From the NCBI RefSeq assembly GCF_007859955.1, contig NZ_SJPR01000001.1, positions 572,388 to 636,387 of the forward strand: DNA of 64,000 nt. The letters are read 5' to 3'. Below, piece by piece: positions 5,211 through 32,363 of this stretch. The notes under the pieces are model-generated. The model saw nothing but the letters and a program-made list of their open reading frames with translations. It was not told the DNA's origin and ran no database searches. Within the stretch, counting starts at the first letter, position 1. Each line of letters starts with the position of its first letter. Made by a program: the position numbers and the translations under genes. Source of the stretch: Botrimarina colliarenosi (GTDB lineage Bacteria > Planctomycetota > Planctomycetia > Pirellulales > Lacipirellulaceae).

Positions 5211-7045
5211 GTCTTCAAGTCCGCCGTTGTCTCATGCTGACTGCGTTTGCGGCGGTTTCCGCCGTGACGTTTGTGGCGGCCTATTCGCTCCGCTTCGGTG
5301 GTCCCATCCCTGAGCAGCACGTCGCCGGCATGACGGTCGCCATGCTCTGCGCCGTCGGCGTCAAGCTCTTCTCGTTCTGCTGGCATCGGCTTGACCAAAA
5401 CGTCAACCGCTACATTGGCTTTCATGATCTCGTAACGATCGCCAAGGCGACCACGCTAAGCACCATCGGGCTGTCGTTTGTCGACACCTTTCTGCTGCCC
5501 GAAGTCTCGACCCCGCGCGGCGTCTTGCTGATCGATTGGGGGGTTACCCTGCTGGCGGTCGGATTATTGCGATCGGCGCCCCGCGCGTACCGCGACTTGC
5601 GGAGTAACTTTGCCAAAGAGACGGGCCGCCGCGCCCTGATTGTCGGCGCCAACGACGAAGGGGAGTCGCTCCTCCGGACGCTCCGCATGGCGCGGATGCA
5701 ACCGCTACGCGCCGTCGGCTTCATCGACCCCGATGTCCGCCAGTTCGGCCAACACATCGGCGGGGTCCCGGTTGTCGGCGTTCCTGAGGACCTCCCGCGG
5801 CTTGTCGCCGAGTACTCGGCTCACGAAGTGCTGATCGCCGGTTCGCTGCCCGGGCGGGTGGTGCGCACCGTGATGGCGGACGCCCAACGCGCCGGCGTGC
5901 CGGTCCGGGCGATGCCGACCCACGAACAGCTGCTACGCGGCACGGTTTCGGTTGGTCCTCGCGACGTCTCGATCGAGGACCTCTTGCGCCGTGATCCCGT
6001 GCGGCTGGACAACGGCGCCATCTCCAACTGGCTCGCCGGACAGACGGTGCTTGTCACCGGAAGTTCCGGCTCGATTGGCTCGGAGATCTGTCGCCAACTG
6101 CTCAAGCACAAGCCTGCCAAGCTGGTCGCTCTCGACCGCTCTGAAACGGGGCAGTTTTTCCTCGATCGCGAGTTGGAAGCGCTCGCCCCCGGGGTCGTTG
6201 AGGTCGTGCTCGCCGACACGAACGACCGCGAGCGGCTCGACGCGGTGTTTCAGGAGCATCGCCCCCGCGTGGTATTCCACGCCGCGGCTTACAAGCACGT
6301 GCCGCTCATGGAAAAGCATCCCGGCGAGGCGATCAAGAACATCACGCTCGCCACACGCAATGTCGCCGACGCCGCCGAGGCGTCGGGCGCCGCAAGCTTC
6401 GTTATGGTGAGCACCGACAAGGCGGTGAACCCGACCAGCGTGATGGGCGCCTGCAAGCAAATGGCGGAACGCTATGTGCAGGCGAAGAGCGTCGGGTCGG
6501 CGTGTCGTTTCGTAACGGTCCGATTTGGCAACGTGCTCGACTCGGCCGGCAGCGTGATCCCAATCTTCCGCCAGCAGATCGCCCAGGGCGGTCCGATCAC
6601 GGTGACGCACCCCGATATCAATCGCTACTTCATGATGATCCCGGAGGCGGCTCAGTTGGTCGTCCAGGCGGCGACGATGGGGCAGGGGGGGGAGATCTTC
6701 GTTCTCGACATGGGCGAGCCGGTGCGGATTCTCGATCTGGCCCGCGACATGATCCGGCTGTCGGGCCTGCGAGAAGGCGAGGACATTGAGGTTGAGATCA
6801 CCGGCTTGCGACCGGGCGAGAAGCTCTACGAAGAGCTTTACAACGACAGCGAGCAGCACAAGCCGACTTCGCACGAGAAGATCATGACGGCCGACTGTGC
6901 GGTGCAACCCCTCGTGCAGGTGCTGCACGATCTGCGTCGTCTTGAGGCGGCGGCCAACGACTCGGTTGCCGAGGCCTTGGCGGCGCTCGAAGAGATCGTT
7001 CCGCGGATGCCGACCGAAACCCTGGCGCTGCGCGTCGCCGCGTGA
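5207..7045 (+). CDS. CapD/WbpM-type nucleotide-sugar 4,6-dehydratase/epimerase, membrane-anchored
   Basis: The N-terminus has several hydrophobic helices. A CoA-binding-like Rossmann segment (RRALIVGANDEG) follows near residue 142, and an extended SDR domain begins about residue 283 with TGSSGSIGSE, the NAD(P)-binding glycine motif. The catalytic region reads STDKAVNPTSVMGACK. Met replaces the classical SDR Tyr, as is usual in the PglF/WbpM/CapD dehydratases. The length (612 aa) fits that family. It makes a deoxy or amino sugar nucleotide precursor for polysaccharide synthesis. It overlaps the ligase gene by four bases and ends only eight bases from the converging moaC-moaB stop. Confidence 0.9.
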   Translation: MSLQVRRCLMLTAFAAVSAVTFVAAYSLRFGGPIPEQHVAGMTVAMLCAVGVKLFSFCWHRLDQNVNRYIGFHDLVTIAKATTLSTIGLSFVDTFLLPEVSTPRGVLLIDWGVTLLAVGLLRSAPRAYRDLRSNFAKETGRRALIVGANDEGESLLRTLRMARMQPLRAVGFIDPDVRQFGQHIGGVPVVGVPEDLPRLVAEYSAHEVLIAGSLPGRVVRTVMADAQRAGVPVRAMPTHEQLLRGTVSVGPRDVSIEDLLRRDPVRLDNGAISNWLAGQTVLVTGSSGSIGSEICRQLLKHKPAKLVALDRSETGQFFLDRELEALAPGVVEVVLADTNDRERLDAVFQEHRPRVVFHAAAYKHVPLMEKHPGEAIKNITLATRNVADAAEASGAASFVMVSTDKAVNPTSVMGACKQMAERYVQAKSVGSACRFVTVRFGNVLDSAGSVIPIFRQQIAQGGPITVTHPDINRYFMMIPEAAQLVVQAATMGQGGEIFVLDMGEPVRILDLARDMIRLSGLREGEDIEVEITGLRPGEKLYEELYNDSEQHKPTSHEKIMTADCAVQPLVQVLHDLRRLEAAANDSVAEALAALEEIVPRMPTETLALRVAA

Positions 7046-7053
7046 GCGCTGCG

Positions 7054-8034
7054 CTACGGGTGGCTCGCTTCCTCGCCACGCAGCGTTTCGAGCGTGTGGG
7101 GCAGTACGTCGGCGATCAGCCTGAGCGTCTCGACGGCGCCACGCGGCGAGCCCGGCAGGTTGACGATCAGGGTCCGCCCGACGACGCCGGCGACGCCGCG
7201 CGACAGATAAGCGTGCGGCTTCCCAGGAAGGCACCGCGCGCGGGCCAAATCAAGCAGGCCCGGATGGAGCCGCTCAGCGACTTCGATCGTCGCCTCGGGA
7301 GTGACGTCGCGTGGTCCGACGCCTGTGCCGCCTGTCGTGAGGACGAGCGACGGCGCAGCGGGCTCGCTGGCCCAGTCGCGGAGCTGCGTGGCGATCGCTA
7401 CGCGATCGTCCGGGACGAGCTTCGAGGCGACGACGTCGCCTCCCAGGAACCTCTGCACGGCGTCGGCCAGTAGCGGCGTCGCCAAGTCCTCTGCGGCGCC
7501 GGCAGAGCGACTGTCGCTGACAGTGAGGATCGCGACGCGCGGCCCCGCGGCGTGGTGGCGGGTCGGCCCCGATTTACCGCCCGTCTTCTCGACGACTCGG
7601 AGGGAGCGGATCTCGATCGCTGGATTGAGTGACTTGCCCATATCGACGACGTTTAGCGCCGCCCCGGCGACGGCGGCGAGCGCCTCCATCTCGACGCCCG
7701 TTTGTCCCGCGGTGCGGACCGTGGCGGTGAGGACGACACAATCTTCTTCGAGCGTCGCCTCGACATCGATGTGGGCGAGCGGCAGCGGGTGGCAGAGCAG
7801 GACGAGGTCGGCGGTTCGCTTCGCCGCCTGGACGCCGCCGAGTCTCGCCACTTGGAGCAAGTCGCCTTTCTTGAGGGAGTTCTCGCGGATGGCGGCGGCC
7901 ACCTCGGGGCCGACATCGACGCGGCCTTCGGCCACGGCGCGGCGGTCGGTAACCGGCTTGCCGCCGACGTCCACCATCCGCGCACGCCCCGCGGTGTCGA
8001 GGTGGGAGAGCGGCGGTTCGTTGGAGCGAGTCAT
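7054..8034 (-). CDS. Bifunctional molybdenum cofactor protein: MoaC fused to MoaB/MogA
   Basis: The N-terminal half is MoaC (cyclic pyranopterin monophosphate synthase accessory enzyme): MVDVGGKPVTDRRAVAEG, GDLLQVARLGGVQAAKRT, a HPLPL segment and TGVEMEALAAV are its signature stretches. The C-terminal half, from about residue 165, is a MoaB/MogA domain with VAILTVSDSR and TTGGTGVGPRDVTPEAT, expected to adenylylate molybdopterin. ATG at 8034 is chosen; it lies four bases after the moeA stop, so the two genes form an operon. A longer reading to 8127 would overlap moeA and lacks family similarity. The fusion places an early and a late step of molybdopterin synthesis on one polypeptide. Confidence 0.9.
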   Translation of the reverse strand: MTRSNEPPLSHLDTAGRARMVDVGGKPVTDRRAVAEGRVDVGPEVAAAIRENSLKKGDLLQVARLGGVQAAKRTADLVLLCHPLPLAHIDVEATLEEDCVVLTATVRTAGQTGVEMEALAAVAGAALNVVDMGKSLNPAIEIRSLRVVEKTGGKSGPTRHHAAGPRVAILTVSDSRSAGAAEDLATPLLADAVQRFLGGDVVASKLVPDDRVAIATQLRDWASEPAAPSLVLTTGGTGVGPRDVTPEATIEVAERLHPGLLDLARARCLPGKPHAYLSRGVAGVVGRTLIVNLPGSPRGAVETLRLIADVLPHTLETLRGEEASHP

Positions 8035-24982: not shown

Positions 24983-27791
<2,809 letters not shown>

Positions 27792-27847
27792 TTAATCAAA
27801 CGCTTCAAGCGTGCTAGAGACAGTCACCGTGAGGTGATTGTCAGTCC

Positions 27848-27859
27848 CTCTTGCTCAAG
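27848..27859 (+). other. 3' half of 23S rRNA processing stem
   Basis: CTCTTGCTCAAG pairs with 24742-24753. It lies about 57 bases after the 23S 3' end and before the 5S gene. Confidence 0.75.
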
Positions 27860-27909
27860 TCATGTCATAGACAGACACAGTCATGTCGCTGAGAAATCAG
27901 CGGCGAGGC

Positions 27910-27933
27910 GTGTTAGGTTTCACCACCTAACAC
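27910..27933 (+). other. Hairpin in the 23S-5S spacer
   Basis: A perfect 9-bp inverted repeat (GTGTTAGGT / ACCTAACAC, loop TTCACC) just before the 5S gene. No U-tract follows, so it is more likely a processing signal for the 5S 5' end than a terminator. Confidence 0.6.
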
Positions 27934-27937
27934 GGCT

Positions 27938-28047
27938 TTCTGGCGACCATATTCGAAAGGAAATACCTGTTCCCATTCCGAACACAGTAGTCAAGCTTTC
28001 GAAGCCGATGATAGTGCCTACCAGTGCGAAAGTAGGTATCGCCAGTT
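27938..28047 (+). rRNA. rrf: 5S ribosomal RNA
   Basis: About 110 nt closed by CTGGCGA / TCGCCAG. It contains the conserved loop CCCATTCCGAACACAG and the 3' GCGAAAGTAGG segment. It is co-directional with 23S and about 145 bases downstream of it; exact ends are estimated. Confidence 0.95.
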
Positions 28048-28051
28048 TTTT

Positions 28052-28087
28052 AAACCCTCCCGGGCTTCGGCCCGGGAGGGTTTTTTT
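28052..28087 (+). terminator. Rho-independent terminator of the rRNA unit
   Basis: A perfect 14-bp stem (28052-28065 and 28070-28083, loop TTCG) with a very GC-rich core, followed by a run of T (28081-28087), immediately after 5S. Confidence 0.95.
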
Positions 28088-28240: not shown

Positions 28241-28744
28241 TTACTTCGACAGGTGGCCGACGAAGCCAGCCGCTTCGAGCACCGGCTGGGTGAGCGGGTC
28301 GGTGAATTTCACCATGGCGATCTCGTCGAAGGGGATCACGAGAAAGCGACCGCCTAAGGAGTCGGGGCTGGTCCGCTCTAGAAGCAGAAATTGACCCCGA
28401 ATCATGAACGCCTTGAAGGGCGACGCCTCATTCAGCTTGCTGATCAGGATCCCGCGTTGAGGAACTGAACTCGGCCAATCACAGAAGAGATCGTGCCAGT
28501 GGCTTTGGGCAACGGTCGTGGGCTCTGCGACGACTGTCGGTAGGGGAGGGGCCGGAACCGACGGACGCGTCTCGGGGGGAGCCGGTCGCTGTACGGAGGC
28601 CGCCTCGGCGCGGGCCAAGGCAGCGATGGCGGGACTAACGGCGGGGGCCGACTTCGCGGCACGTTCCTGGACTGACGGTGGATTCGTCGGTGTTGCCGAG
28701 GCGACGGCCGGAGGGCATGTCGGAACGGAGGAAGGCAAACTCAT
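28241..28744 (-). CDS. Small conserved-looking hypothetical protein with Pro/Ala-rich N-terminus
   Basis: 167 aa. The first ~75 residues are Pro/Ala/Ser-rich and probably disordered. The last ~85 residues look like a compact domain (WHDLFCDWPSSVPQRGIL, FLLLERTSPDSLGGRFLVI, IAMVKFTDPLTQPVLEAAGF). No signal peptide or membrane helix is seen. It lies 150 bases downstream of the ATP-grasp ligase gene on the same strand and may be co-transcribed with the ligase/transglutaminase genes. I do not recognise the family. ATG at 28744 is the natural start. Confidence 0.6.
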   Translation of the reverse strand: MSLPSSVPTCPPAVASATPTNPPSVQERAAKSAPAVSPAIAALARAEAASVQRPAPPETRPSVPAPPLPTVVAEPTTVAQSHWHDLFCDWPSSVPQRGILISKLNEASPFKAFMIRGQFLLLERTSPDSLGGRFLVIPFDEIAMVKFTDPLTQPVLEAAGFVGHLSK

Positions 28745-28894
28745 CGCGGAAACCTAAGGCGGCGCGGAGACGGGCTGGGCGCGAGCAGTTGCGACCCCAG
28801 AGAAGGGCTCGACCCCCACGGAAGGGTAGGTCACGTGGGGCGGCCGGGCGCTGCACTGCCGATCACAATCGTCCGCCAGCTCTTGAAGAGGCCG

Positions 28895-29851
28895 CTAGAG
28901 GCCCATATTCGCCACTTCATCGATGAGCCGCCACCGCGCGTCACCTTTCAGGAGGTGATCCGGGTTGGACCTGACCCGCTCGAGCCGCGGCCAAATGCCG
29001 ACGCGGTTGGCCACTTGAATCGCCAACCCCGGACGCGCGTTGGCCTCAAGGACGACCGGTCCTTTCTGGGCGTCAATGACGAAGTCGACGCCGATGTAAC
29101 CCATTTCGAGGGCGTCGGAGAGCTTCATGGCTGAATCGAGCAGGTGCCTCCAGTTCGGCAGTTCGATACCAGCGATCGGCTGATGGGTGTCAGGATGCTC
29201 ATCGACGATCCGGTTGCTGCAGACGCCGCCGTAGGTTTGTCCACTCGAAAGGTCGATTGCAGCCGCGATTGCGCCCTGGTGCAGGTTGGCTCGGCCTCCC
29301 GAGGCGTGCGTCGGAAGCCGTAGCATCGCCATGACGGGGATCCCGCGGTACAGGATCACACGGACGTCGGGGGTGCCGCCGACCGAGACGCTGTCGAGGG
29401 CCGGATGAGTGACGATCCGCCGTTCGACGATCACCGTGTCCATCTTGCCGCCAAGCGAGTGCAAGCCGGAAATGATCGTCGAGAGGTGATATCGGACCTC
29501 ATTCCACCGGAGCCCGCGTCCGCTTGGGCTGATGTAGATGTCACCGACATGCTCGGCGATGACCATGACGCCGCGCCCAGCGGCGCCACAGGCGGGTTTA
29601 ATCACAAAGTCGGTGATTTCGCGGACGAGTTCCGGGAACCTGCCTACTTCGCCGTGCTTGTCGAAGACCCCGTAGGTTTCGGGGACCGGGATGTCGTTCG
29701 CCTCGCAGATCGACTTCGTAATGAGCTTGTTATCGACCCGGGGATAAAGCCGGCGGGGATTCGACTCGAGGATGTACGAGAGGTTGCGGCGGTTGATCCC
29801 AAGGATCCCGCTATCTTTCAATTCACTCGGCCAGGCGAACCAGCGCGGCAT
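28895..29851 (-). CDS. RimK-related ATP-grasp ligase (alpha-L-glutamate ligase homolog)
   Basis: An ATP-grasp fold enzyme expected to join amino acids through an acyl-phosphate. Visible features are the N-terminal LGINRRNLSYILESNPR, the nucleotide-binding strand DFVIKPACGAAGRGVMV (81-97), the VIVERRI strand (about 147), the DVRVILYRG strand and the metal-binding GVDFVIDAQKGPVVLEANARPG region near the C-terminus. ATG at 29851 gives 318 aa, the size usual for this subfamily; a longer frame to 29974 would overlap the upstream gene and adds unlike residues. It lies 64 bases after the transglutaminase-7TM gene on the same strand. The substrate is unknown; a peptide or protein tail is the family-based guess. 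Confidence 0.85.
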   Translation of the reverse strand: MPRWFAWPSELKDSGILGINRRNLSYILESNPRRLYPRVDNKLITKSICEANDIPVPETYGVFDKHGEVGRFPELVREITDFVIKPACGAAGRGVMVIAEHVGDIYISPSGRGLRWNEVRYHLSTIISGLHSLGGKMDTVIVERRIVTHPALDSVSVGGTPDVRVILYRGIPVMAMLRLPTHASGGRANLHQGAIAAAIDLSSGQTYGGVCSNRIVDEHPDTHQPIAGIELPNWRHLLDSAMKLSDALEMGYIGVDFVIDAQKGPVVLEANARPGLAIQVANRVGIWPRLERVRSNPDHLLKGDARWRLIDEVANMGL

Positions 29852-29915
29852 CTTGGTGACTCGAGGGGGGAAGGGCGTCGCGGACCTGAAATCGGCAAGG
29901 GGGATCCGGACAAGG

Positions 29916-31490
29916 TCAGTCCGTCTTGACGAGATCGCGGAAACGCCAGAGCTCGACCAAGCGATACCCGGCATAGCGACCGATCGCGATGAACAAGGCG
30001 ACCGTGATCAGGTGGGTTTCGGGGTAGACCAGGATGATATGGCCGATCGTTTCCCAGCTGAGGACCATGTAGCAGACCGCGCCGACGCCGATGGTGCCGG
30101 CGACGAGCTGCATGGCGAAGCCGACGCCGTCCTCCTCGGTGGTCACATAGAACCTTTCGATGAGGACGGTGACGATCACCAACGGCAGCAGCACCGCGTT
30201 GGCGCTGGGGGTGAGATTGAGATAATCGAGGGCTGAAACACTGAAGACCACGCACAAAATGATCGTTGTCAGAATGATGCTAAGTCGCGGCACCATAAGC
30301 AGCTGCAGTCTTCCGACAAGGACTCGGCCCGCTAGGCCGGCGATGATCACAACGGCCAGGATGAGCAATCCCGACGTCCCGTCGGCGTAGACGAAGCTGA
30401 CGGCGAACAGGGCCGGAGCAAAGGTCCCGAGCGTCGGGATGCCGACGATGTTGCGGAAAAACGCCGTGATCAGGGCTCCGAAGGGAAGTAGCAGCAGAAG
30501 AGCCAGCACCTCGTGCATTTCGACTGGCAGTCGCGTCAGGTCGAATACTTGCGAAGGGTGGTTCTCGGTGCGGTCGAGCACCGAGTCGGGTGGCCCGAGG
30601 CGGACAATCGAGTACTTCGACACGATTTCCTCTGCGATCGCACTCTTGGGGGTGCGGACAATCTCCTCGCCATCGCGGCGAGCCGCGACGAACTCGTTAG
30701 GCAGCCGCCGGGCGTGGCCGTAGACCGGATCGAAGGGGAGCCAGCGGGCGTCCCGAAAGACTTCGACCCAAGTGTGGGGCTGCAACTGCTCCTGCTGCCG
30801 GAGCTCAAAACCGGTCACCAAGCGGGCGGGGAACTTCGCGGCCCGGCAGAGAGTCACCATCAATCGGGCCCGCCCCAGCGGGGTCGCCGAGCCGTCACGG
30901 AGGGCGCCCAGGACGCTGTCGTTGGAATTGTCAGCGGCGTGCTTCAGGTCGCGGGAGCAGTGATCGAAAATCCACTGCAGCTTACCGCCGTCCGACGTCG
31001 TCTCCGATTCGGCTCGACGCAAAAGAGCGAGAACATCGGCGTTCCGCGTTGGGAAAATCGTCCGCTCTTCGCTCAGGTACTTCGCCTCGGTGTCGCCCGA
31101 GAGGTTCTGGAGGGGGGGCTCACCCCAACCGCCGCGGGGTCGCAAACGGGCGACAAACTCGGCCGTCACCCGGTAATTATCCTGCTGACTGGTGCTGACC
31201 ACGAGCTCGCGCGTGCCGCTTGGTCGGAGTCGGACCATCCGCTCCGAGAGCATCGGATTGGTCGAGTTTTCGGTCTCAATTGCGACGTGATCGCTGTCGG
31301 AGGGGAGGGCGAGCCGCACCTCGGTCCGGTCGCCGGTCGCCTTGAACTGCACGTCGTAGGTAAGACGCCACAGGCTGTCTTCCAAGGCGGTGCGATCGGC
31401 AACCCTTCCTGAATGGCGGATCGCCAGCCCAACTCCGCCGATAAGGAGCAGGCCGAAGATAGCGAGTTGGCTCAGCGAGCGACTACTCAC
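29916..31490 (-). CDS. Inactive transglutaminase-like protein fused to seven transmembrane helices
   Basis: One N-terminal membrane helix (about residues 8-25) is followed by a periplasmic beta domain and a transglutaminase-like domain (about 150-260), then about seven helices (325-515). In the transglutaminase core the His (PHTWVEVF, H239) and Asp (LPFDPVYG, D254) positions are kept. The helix that should start with the catalytic Cys reads DGSATPLGRARLMVTL (199 onwards), so the nucleophile is lost. It should bind rather than cleave or cross-link peptides. The architecture matches the known inactive transglutaminase/7TM families (PF14400/PF14402-like), which are found beside ATP-grasp ligases. 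First gene of the ligase operon. Confidence 0.87.
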   Translation of the reverse strand: MSSRSLSQLAIFGLLLIGGVGLAIRHSGRVADRTALEDSLWRLTYDVQFKATGDRTEVRLALPSDSDHVAIETENSTNPMLSERMVRLRPSGTRELVVSTSQQDNYRVTAEFVARLRPRGGWGEPPLQNLSGDTEAKYLSEERTIFPTRNADVLALLRRAESETTSDGGKLQWIFDHCSRDLKHAADNSNDSVLGALRDGSATPLGRARLMVTLCRAAKFPARLVTGFELRQQEQLQPHTWVEVFRDARWLPFDPVYGHARRLPNEFVAARRDGEEIVRTPKSAIAEEIVSKYSIVRLGPPDSVLDRTENHPSQVFDLTRLPVEMHEVLALLLLLPFGALITAFFRNIVGIPTLGTFAPALFAVSFVYADGTSGLLILAVVIIAGLAGRVLVGRLQLLMVPRLSIILTTIILCVVFSVSALDYLNLTPSANAVLLPLVIVTVLIERFYVTTEEDGVGFAMQLVAGTIGVGAVCYMVLSWETIGHIILVYPETHLITVALFIAIGRYAGYRLVELWRFRDLVKTD

Positions 31491-31715
31491 AATAAGTTTC
31501 AGTCAAAAGGGGGAAATCAAGGTGGGGCACGGCGTCGACGAGCGAAGCTTCCGCAATTGCGCGGCATGCGCCTGCGCAAGTGAACCTCTTTGGTGGGGTT
31601 CGCGTAGACTATAGCTCAGAAATAGTCCCCCTGAACTGCCGGCATCTTGCTATTCTTCCGGAGCACCCTCATTCTCCAAGCCCTCCCCACCCGCCAAGTC
31701 GCGCCGCCTACACCG
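31491..31715. other. Divergent promoter region of the ligase/transglutaminase and protease genes
   Basis: 225 bases between the two divergent starts. A short hairpin TTGCGC/GCGCAA lies at 31557-31579 and could be an operator or a stem in either transcript. No unambiguous promoter was found. Confidence 0.4.
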
Positions 31716-32363
31716 ATGTCAACGGATCGGAAACTCCCGGGAAACGCCCCGTGCGTCCTCTTGATCGTTGCCGCCTTGCTGCTGGCCGCCCCCCTGGGTT
31801 CGGTGGCGATAGGGGCTGACGACCCGATTTCAGAGAAGGTGGACGAATCGATTCCACCGGAAGAATCGGCGCCACTGGACTGTCCGGAAGGCGAAGAGAA
31901 GGCAGTCATCGGGGCGACCGCCGACTTCGTTGAGAAGTCGTCCGGCTTCCGCTACACGGCTCGCGTCGACACGGGGGCGACGACCTGCTCGATCCACGCC
32001 TCCAAGGTCCGGGTCGAGGACGCCGAGAAGTCGATGCTCAAGAACGTGGGCAAGAAGGTGTCGTTCGAACTTGAGTCGGACAACGGCAAGAAGAAGCGGG
32101 TCTCGACCACCATCGCCGACACGATCCGGGTCAAGACGTCCGACGCGAAGGAGCGTCGCTACAAAGTCTGGCTGACTCTCCTGCATGGCGGGGTCGAACG
32201 CCGGGTGCACGTGACGCTCAACGACCGCTCGCATATGGAGTTCCCGCTGCTGATCGGTCGGAATTTCTTGTGCGGAAAGTTTGTGGTCGATGTCGCCGAA
32301 GAGCACAGCGACGGGGCGATCGCGGCCAGCGCCGAGGCGAAGTCGGCCGGCGACGGGGGCTGA
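31716..32363 (+). CDS. Secreted retropepsin-like aspartyl protease (RimB/ATP-dependent zinc protease family, PF05618-like)
   Basis: A signal peptide (residues 1-34, hydrophobic core VLLIVAALLLAAP) precedes a single retropepsin-like domain with the active motif RVDTGATTCSIHA (Asp85) and the later LLIGRNFL strand. This pair of motifs is typical of the PF05618 family, once called ATP-dependent zinc protease, whose members resemble half of a pepsin and act as dimers. The ATG at 31716 is chosen over 31647 because it begins a clean signal peptide. It is divergent from the inactive transglutaminase and RimK-like ligase. The export signal and the periplasmic transglutaminase domain suggest action outside the cytoplasm. 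Its C-terminal tail is Ala/Gly-rich. Confidence 0.85.
   Translation: MSTDRKLPGNAPCVLLIVAALLLAAPLGSVAIGADDPISEKVDESIPPEESAPLDCPEGEEKAVIGATADFVEKSSGFRYTARVDTGATTCSIHASKVRVEDAEKSMLKNVGKKVSFELESDNGKKKRVSTTIADTIRVKTSDAKERRYKVWLTLLHGGVERRVHVTLNDRSHMEFPLLIGRNFLCGKFVVDVAEEHSDGAIAASAEAKSAGDGG

Follow-up and report, generated by a model that had tools for sequence, protein, structure and literature searches.

The locus studied here is a deep-branching planctomycete relative of the rlo operon, which was described in Pseudomonas aeruginosa in 2025 and contains the same three protein families, RloA, RloB and RloC (PMC12239564). Comparison across genomes showed that the membrane protein RloB and the ligase RloC form a fixed core, and that the retropepsin RloA is a lineage-dependent, optional accessory. 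An adding and removing pair was essentially published already; what is new here is a PVC-rich deep RloB clade, the split between core and accessory parts, and a form of the RloB 7TM domain without transglutaminase domain (TG-less) that is linked or fused to a ligase.

The locus lies in a 64,000-nucleotide stretch of Botrimarina colliarenosi DNA, referred to as the window. All four ORFs described in an initial annotation of this DNA were found in the ORF list of the window at the same positions, and the three main genes (rloA-, rloB- and rloC-like) are real and intact. The features are as follows:

28241..28744, minus strand: small gene of 167 aa, 150 bases downstream of rloC, a bystander
28895..29851, minus strand: rloC-like ATP-grasp ligase, ~318 aa (TIGR02291 above cut-off, PF14397)
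29916..31490, minus strand: rloB-like membrane protein, 524 aa (PF14402 and PF01841, hydropathy)
29931..30560, minus strand: 7TM domain of RloB, residues 311-520 (PF14402), with invariant motifs TFGTFxPxLxA and GRYxGYRLxELxRFR
30726..30977, minus strand: inactive transglutaminase core of RloB, residues 172-255 (alignment to 3isr; columns over 96 relatives)
31491..31715, no strand: intergenic region between the divergent rloB and rloA (ORF positions)
31716..32363, plus strand: rloA-like retropepsin, predicted to be secreted, 215 aa, signal peptide MSTDRKLPGNAPCVLLIVAALLLAAPLGSVAIGA (PF05618, hydropathy)
31968..31979, plus strand: DTGA catalytic motif of RloA (from the sequence; D108 in the 238-aa frame)

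The rloC ORF is open from the ATG at 29974, from which RloC residues are numbered below, but its probable start is the ATG at 29851, because the segment MPRWFAWPSEL is common to the nearest relative, the starts of other relatives lie close by, and the preceding part is not conserved. The likely start of rloA is the ATG at 31716, since the signal peptide comes after it. Both promoters presumably lie in the intergenic region 31491..31715, in which no consensus sigma-70 site was found.

Profile searches bore out the identities that the initial annotation had proposed for the ligase, the membrane protein and the protease. The RloC-like protein matched TIGR02291 (rimK_rel_E_lig) in NCBIfam with 354.8 bits, above the cut-off of 314.2, and PF14397 in Pfam (3e-80); a match to PF18030 of RimK was absent, and the rimK_fam score was 49.8 of 143.4 bits. 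The RloB-like protein matched PF14402 (7TM_transglut, 7e-50) and PF01841 (Transglut_core, 1e-14), and the RloA-like protein matched PF05618 (8e-17) as well as the RloA-type structures 9g58 and 2pma. Because the scores against the curated NCBIfam models fell below their cut-offs, at 166.2 bits (1e-48) of 900 for RloB and 47.8 of 210 bits for RloA3, the best RloA match, the window RloB and RloA are best regarded as homologues outside those curated groups and not as members of those exact models.

The ligase keeps its ATP-grasp catalytic residues. Among 89 relatives, K126, P127, the glycines of the GxxG loop, D203, R205, D297, E310, N312, R314, P315 and G316 were invariant or nearly so, and K126, D203, R205, D297, E310 and N312 were 100% conserved. 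PF14397, the best Pfam family of RloC, is described as associated with sugar transfer and not with glutamate.

Domain matches and hydropathy give RloB an N-terminal TM helix, a periplasmic inactive transglutaminase domain, a C-terminal 7TM domain and an Arg/Lys-rich C-terminus predicted to be cytosolic. The initial annotation had read the transglutaminase domain as lacking its Cys nucleophile, and this was confirmed by alignment: Pro204 occupies the Cys position of the transglutaminase-like protein 3isr, so that the Cys-His-Asp triad of an active enzyme is incomplete, with His239 and Asp254 kept. None of 96 aligned RloB relatives (one of them gapped) has Cys in this column, and the His and Asp are kept in 36 and 66 of the 96, respectively. 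As the column is never Cys, the loss of the nucleophile is universal among the aligned relatives and probably old.

The DTGA motif of RloA is likewise conserved, with D, G and A invariant and T or S in the second position in 53 relatives. Pseudomonas secretes its RloA proteases, which cut polyglutamate in vitro and which the cells require at low osmolarity; K46, R92, R114 and R137 contact polyglutamate symmetrically, and the substrate channel is basic (PMC12239564). Alignment predicts basic counterparts for three of these four contacts in the window RloA, namely R106, R171 and R194, in a register set by spacing from the catalytic Asp in the structure alignment (9g58/2pma). Among RloA relatives, R106 is R or K in all, R171 is invariant and R194 is conserved in 98%. 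The fourth contact, R92, is Asp158 in the window protein. Hydropathy and the signal peptide also agreed with the compartments assigned earlier, which place the ligase inside and the protease and transglutaminase domain outside.

The likeness to Pseudomonas Rlo extends over the three families, their predicted compartments and the RloB-RloC order, with a dead transglutaminase fused to a 7TM domain, a secreted DTGA retropepsin and an ATP-grasp ligase adjoining rloB. It extends also to the gene complement of the genome, as each has one rlo operon, two further RloA proteases and one rim pair. In the Botrimarina genome, these are two tandem secreted RloA-type retropepsins (L082:7648-9330) and a genuine RimB-RimK pair (L083:5729-6196 and 6236-7441), of which the RimK carries a C-terminal TrkA_C domain. 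However, rloA is co-directional with the other genes in one operon in Pseudomonas and divergent here, a difference of arrangement only, with no part missing. The window RloB also belongs to a separate deep clade, scoring ~166 bits against the RloB cut-off of 900, and its transglutaminase domain still matches PF01841 well, with His and Asp kept. RimB is a retropepsin acting on polyglutamate, and the RimB-RimK system, which adds and removes polyglutamate on RpsF (PMC11957791), resembles the locus in setting a retropepsin against an ATP-grasp ligase with opposed action. RimB, in contrast to the window retropepsin with its predicted signal peptide, stays in the cytosol; RimK brings an N-terminal domain of its own, PF18030, and RimB-RimK includes no membrane protein.

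In whole-genome searches, PF14402 turned up in 14 of 294 genomes from across the phylum, 24 of 197 from the order and all four from the genus. A first wide RloB alignment was too divergent for a bacterial genome scan, and a narrower one was used; the scan gave 461 RloB relatives, of which the best 80 were kept. Neighbourhood counts were taken on unique, testable loci. In 93 of 94 such loci, drawn from several phyla, rloC comes next after rloB in the same orientation, a neighbourhood far beyond chance. The sole testable exception is a gammaproteobacterial divergent rloA-rloB pair with no rloC within ~6 kb downstream (L138:756-2918). The position of rloA depended on lineage: it was upstream and divergent in 15 of 15 Pirellulales loci, present in 31 of 45 proteobacterial-type loci (30 co-directional), and found in 1 of 21 other PVC loci and in 0 of 6 loci of Gemmataceae type. 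The conservation of neighbourhood proposed as a check on the original reading thus held for RloB-RloC and for divergent rloA in Pirellulales; the small gene accompanies rlo in the genus only.

No PF05618 protein was detected anywhere in 17 of 24 RloBC genomes that had been selected for absence of an adjacent rloA, and a profile of secreted RloA relatives gave zero matches in the same 17, with 5 of 5 positive controls detected. Among the 17 are a Chromatiales record labelled as a whole chromosome and the isolate Gemmata sp. IIL30. Because many of the others are draft metagenome bins, any one absence is weak evidence, whereas the overall pattern is firm. Upstream of RloBC in RloA-less genomes no shared replacement hydrolase was found, the neighbour clusters being mostly antisense shadow ORFs or ordinary chromosomal neighbours. 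Because many genomes keep RloB-RloC without a detectable retropepsin, RloA is the accessory and the ligase-membrane pair the core; either trimming is not always needed or it is done by another hydrolase. The protease was the best-studied part of Rlo in the 2025 description, and its placement as optional moves the question from what RloA cuts to what RloB and RloC make and where the product goes. It also names organisms without RloA, in which the RloBC product may accumulate uncut.

In L077 (6238-6849), a 204-aa ORF runs from the initial portion of a retropepsin straight into the final 52 residues of the 7TM profile, and no rloC was detected close to it. It resembles what an internal deletion would leave of an rloA-rloB pair; an assembly error could also account for it.

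A maximum-likelihood tree of 94 RloB proteins, midpoint-rooted for drawing only, separated a mostly proteobacterial side with Deltaproteobacteria and Nitrospirota from a mostly PVC side, each with 99% SH-aLRT. The window RloB clusters with its genus and family, in a deep clade with mostly Planctomycetota, Verrucomicrobiota and Lentisphaerota members. Previously, 96% of RloB matches were reported to be proteobacterial; in a term search, the text of the same paper did not mention Planctomycetota, Verrucomicrobiota, export or transport (PMC12239564). Five RloB proteins from three genera of another planctomycete family fell on the proteobacterial side, with co-directional rloA at 4 of the 5 loci, and rlo has therefore likely been transferred between groups in places. 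The Gemmataceae-type loci L146, L164, L168 and L179 form a distinct deep RloB subclade with no rloA nearby. An RloB-type gene has also been found in a Shewanella vesicle screen (PMC12096838).

The 7TM domain exists in a second, TG-less form, related to the RloB 7TM at 99.5-99.7% probability in profile comparison. Coordinates of five of its seven loci are:

L078:5481-8691
L081:5363-8623
L079:1796-4823
L074:6521-8968
L073:6362-8131

A Ddl-like (D-Ala-D-Ala-ligase-like) ATP-grasp gene lies directly downstream in three of the seven (L078, L079, L081); in a fourth (L074) the TG-less 7TM and the Ddl-like ligase are one protein of 815 aa. With the TG-less form beside, and once fused to, this kind of ligase, the 7TM domain seems to be a partner of ATP-grasp ligases in general. 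The pairing with a second, different ATP-grasp ligase agrees no less well with a domain that conducts or scaffolds the ligase product than with the reader role suggested initially, and makes a direct part in the handling of ligase products testable. At four of these loci (L073, L078, L079, L081), a KamA-family radical SAM gene is the neighbour of either the 7TM gene or the ligase gene, and the loci with TG-less 7TM, Ddl-like ligase and KamA are possibly an undescribed system joining beta- or D-amino acids. When the whole class was searched with the profile of the TG-less 7TM, matches came from many genomes of a further family (f112), mostly in long open frames of 530-740 codons, so that RloBC may be common in that family.

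An AF2 model of RloB residues 305-524 (pLDDT 82) shows long helices and, around the invariant TFGTFxP and PE motifs, helices that are short and interrupted. A fold search with this model found no significant PDB or viral match and no convincing match to a known transporter fold; in a second look, NqrD/E and RnfA/E subunits recurred near the top of the alignments at Z 5.5-7.5, tied with unrelated helical proteins. By eye, the 7TM domain resembles CapC/PgsC, the membrane subunit of poly-gamma-glutamate synthase, with a GxxxxGxxxPxLxA motif in register, but homology to this family (PF14102) was unsupported, as the hhalign score of 23.3 compared with 23.0 and 24.9 for reversed controls and a block-shuffle maximum of 22.8. 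A search of solved structures with the CapC sequence returned none. PgsB-PgsC/CapC, like RloC and RloB, combines an ATP-dependent polyglutamate ligase with a membrane partner; its ligase superfamily is unlike that of RloC, and the likeness is one of analogy only.

Altogether, we consider it about an even chance that the locus works by an Rlo-type mechanism, in which RloC makes a chain, probably of glutamate, that RloB binds or moves across the membrane and that is shortened outside by RloA. Cytoplasmic RloC would use ATP to build an alpha-linked amino-acid chain, most likely of glutamate, either free or on an acceptor. RloB would hold or carry this product across the inner membrane, with the 7TM domain pairing with the ligase and the dead transglutaminase domain serving as a periplasmic binding module without chemistry. 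RloB appears to carry both halves of such a path, the periplasmic domain and the Arg/Lys-rich C-terminus, which should be cytosolic. Secreted RloA would then cut the chain outside the membrane and keep the product at a safe length or amount. We infer glutamate as the unit here, passage of the product through RloB and a role in envelope stress; the chemistry given to RloA would be that of its relatives in published in vitro work. In P. aeruginosa, deletion of rloB or rloC fully rescues the growth defect of a mutant without all three RloA proteases (PMC12239564), an epistasis that fits an RloBC product that is harmful unless trimmed by RloA. The opposed action of ligase and protease, which the initial annotation had proposed, matches this rescue and the cleavage of polyglutamate by Pseudomonas RloA; its adding and removing pair did not hold as a strict pairing, given the many RloB-RloC genomes without a detectable retropepsin. 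We counted the RloB-RloC linkage, the invariant ligase motifs, the signal peptide and DTGA of RloA, the basic contact residues and the pairing of 7TM with a Ddl-like ligase for the Rlo-type model, and counted against it the 17 of 24 genomes without a detectable retropepsin, the lack of a transporter-fold or CapC match, the change of R92 to Asp158 and the sugar-transfer name of PF14397.

A broader reading, which we put forward tentatively as possible, is that the 7TM domain serves generally, for chains built by ATP-grasp ligases, as a conduit or scaffold in the membrane. RloB-RloC would then suffice by itself, in many phyla, to make an amino-acid polymer and export it, with the retropepsin a later accessory, and other 7TM proteins would serve a Ddl-like ligase and a KamA-type radical SAM enzyme.

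The sugar-transfer association of PF14397 bears as well on an unlikely alternative, that RloC, instead of making a polyglutamate chain, adds amino acids to a polysaccharide of the envelope or to a precursor of peptidoglycan, which RloB presents and from which RloA strips peptide decorations. Consistent with it, PA1766-PA1768, the three rlo genes of P. aeruginosa, were hit in a screen for suppressors connected with exopolysaccharide overproduction (PMC7314104), mutants in rlo show phenotypes in cell shape and with cell-wall antibiotics (PMC12239564), and the TG-less 7TM proteins pair with a relative of D-Ala-D-Ala ligase. However, RloA cleaves polyglutamate peptides in vitro and has a basic channel (PMC12239564), and in the neighbour clusters no glycosyltransferase or peptidoglycan gene was conserved beside RloBC. 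RloB might instead be a membrane sensor that recognises the modified product on the outer side and passes a signal to the inside, perhaps to regulate RloC, and its architecture, a periplasmic dead-enzyme domain fused to a polytopic membrane domain with a conserved cytosolic GRYxGYRLxELxRFR tail that could contact RloC, would suit this. We judge this role rather improbable, as no signalling domain is attached to RloB, and a reader leaves unexplained why the 7TM also exists without the periplasmic domain, beside or fused to an ATP-grasp ligase.

The constant pairing of RloB and RloC would also be expected of an enzyme and its substrate, that is, if RloB itself were modified by RloC and RloA took the tail off. 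This is very unlikely: the C-terminus of RloB, the natural site for a tail, is predicted to be cytosolic but RloA lies outside, and RloA cannot be the eraser in genomes that do not have it. That the rlo genes are neighbours by chance, with no joint action, is hardly credible. The opposite strand of rloA and the other PVC RloBC genomes without rloA nearby would allow it, but the adjacency of RloB and RloC in 93 of 94 loci already contradicts it for that pair, and the divergent RloA in 15 of 15 Pirellulales loci and the epistasis in Pseudomonas (PMC12239564) argue against it.

Beyond the small gene, 23S and 5S rRNA genes lie at 24983-28047 of the window, with a strong terminator hairpin at 28052-28083; there is no 16S gene anywhere in the 64 kb, which indicates an unlinked rRNA operon. 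The small protein has a variable Pro/Ala-rich N-terminus and a conserved C-terminal domain of ~85 residues, and it had no Pfam or NCBIfam matches; a single-sequence AF2 model was poor (pLDDT 47). Its gene is genuinely coding, because it is conserved in four genomes of the genus, each time just downstream of rloC. The suggestion that it encodes a substrate or partner of Rlo was rejected: of the 44 genomes of the family, 31 carry the C-terminal domain, and 13 of these 31 have no rloB; four rlo-bearing genomes do not have the domain, and the gene adjoins rloC only in this genus, lying elsewhere in the family far from rloB (4.4 Mb away in one single-contig genome, G452). The small gene is thus a lineage gene and a bystander at the rlo locus.
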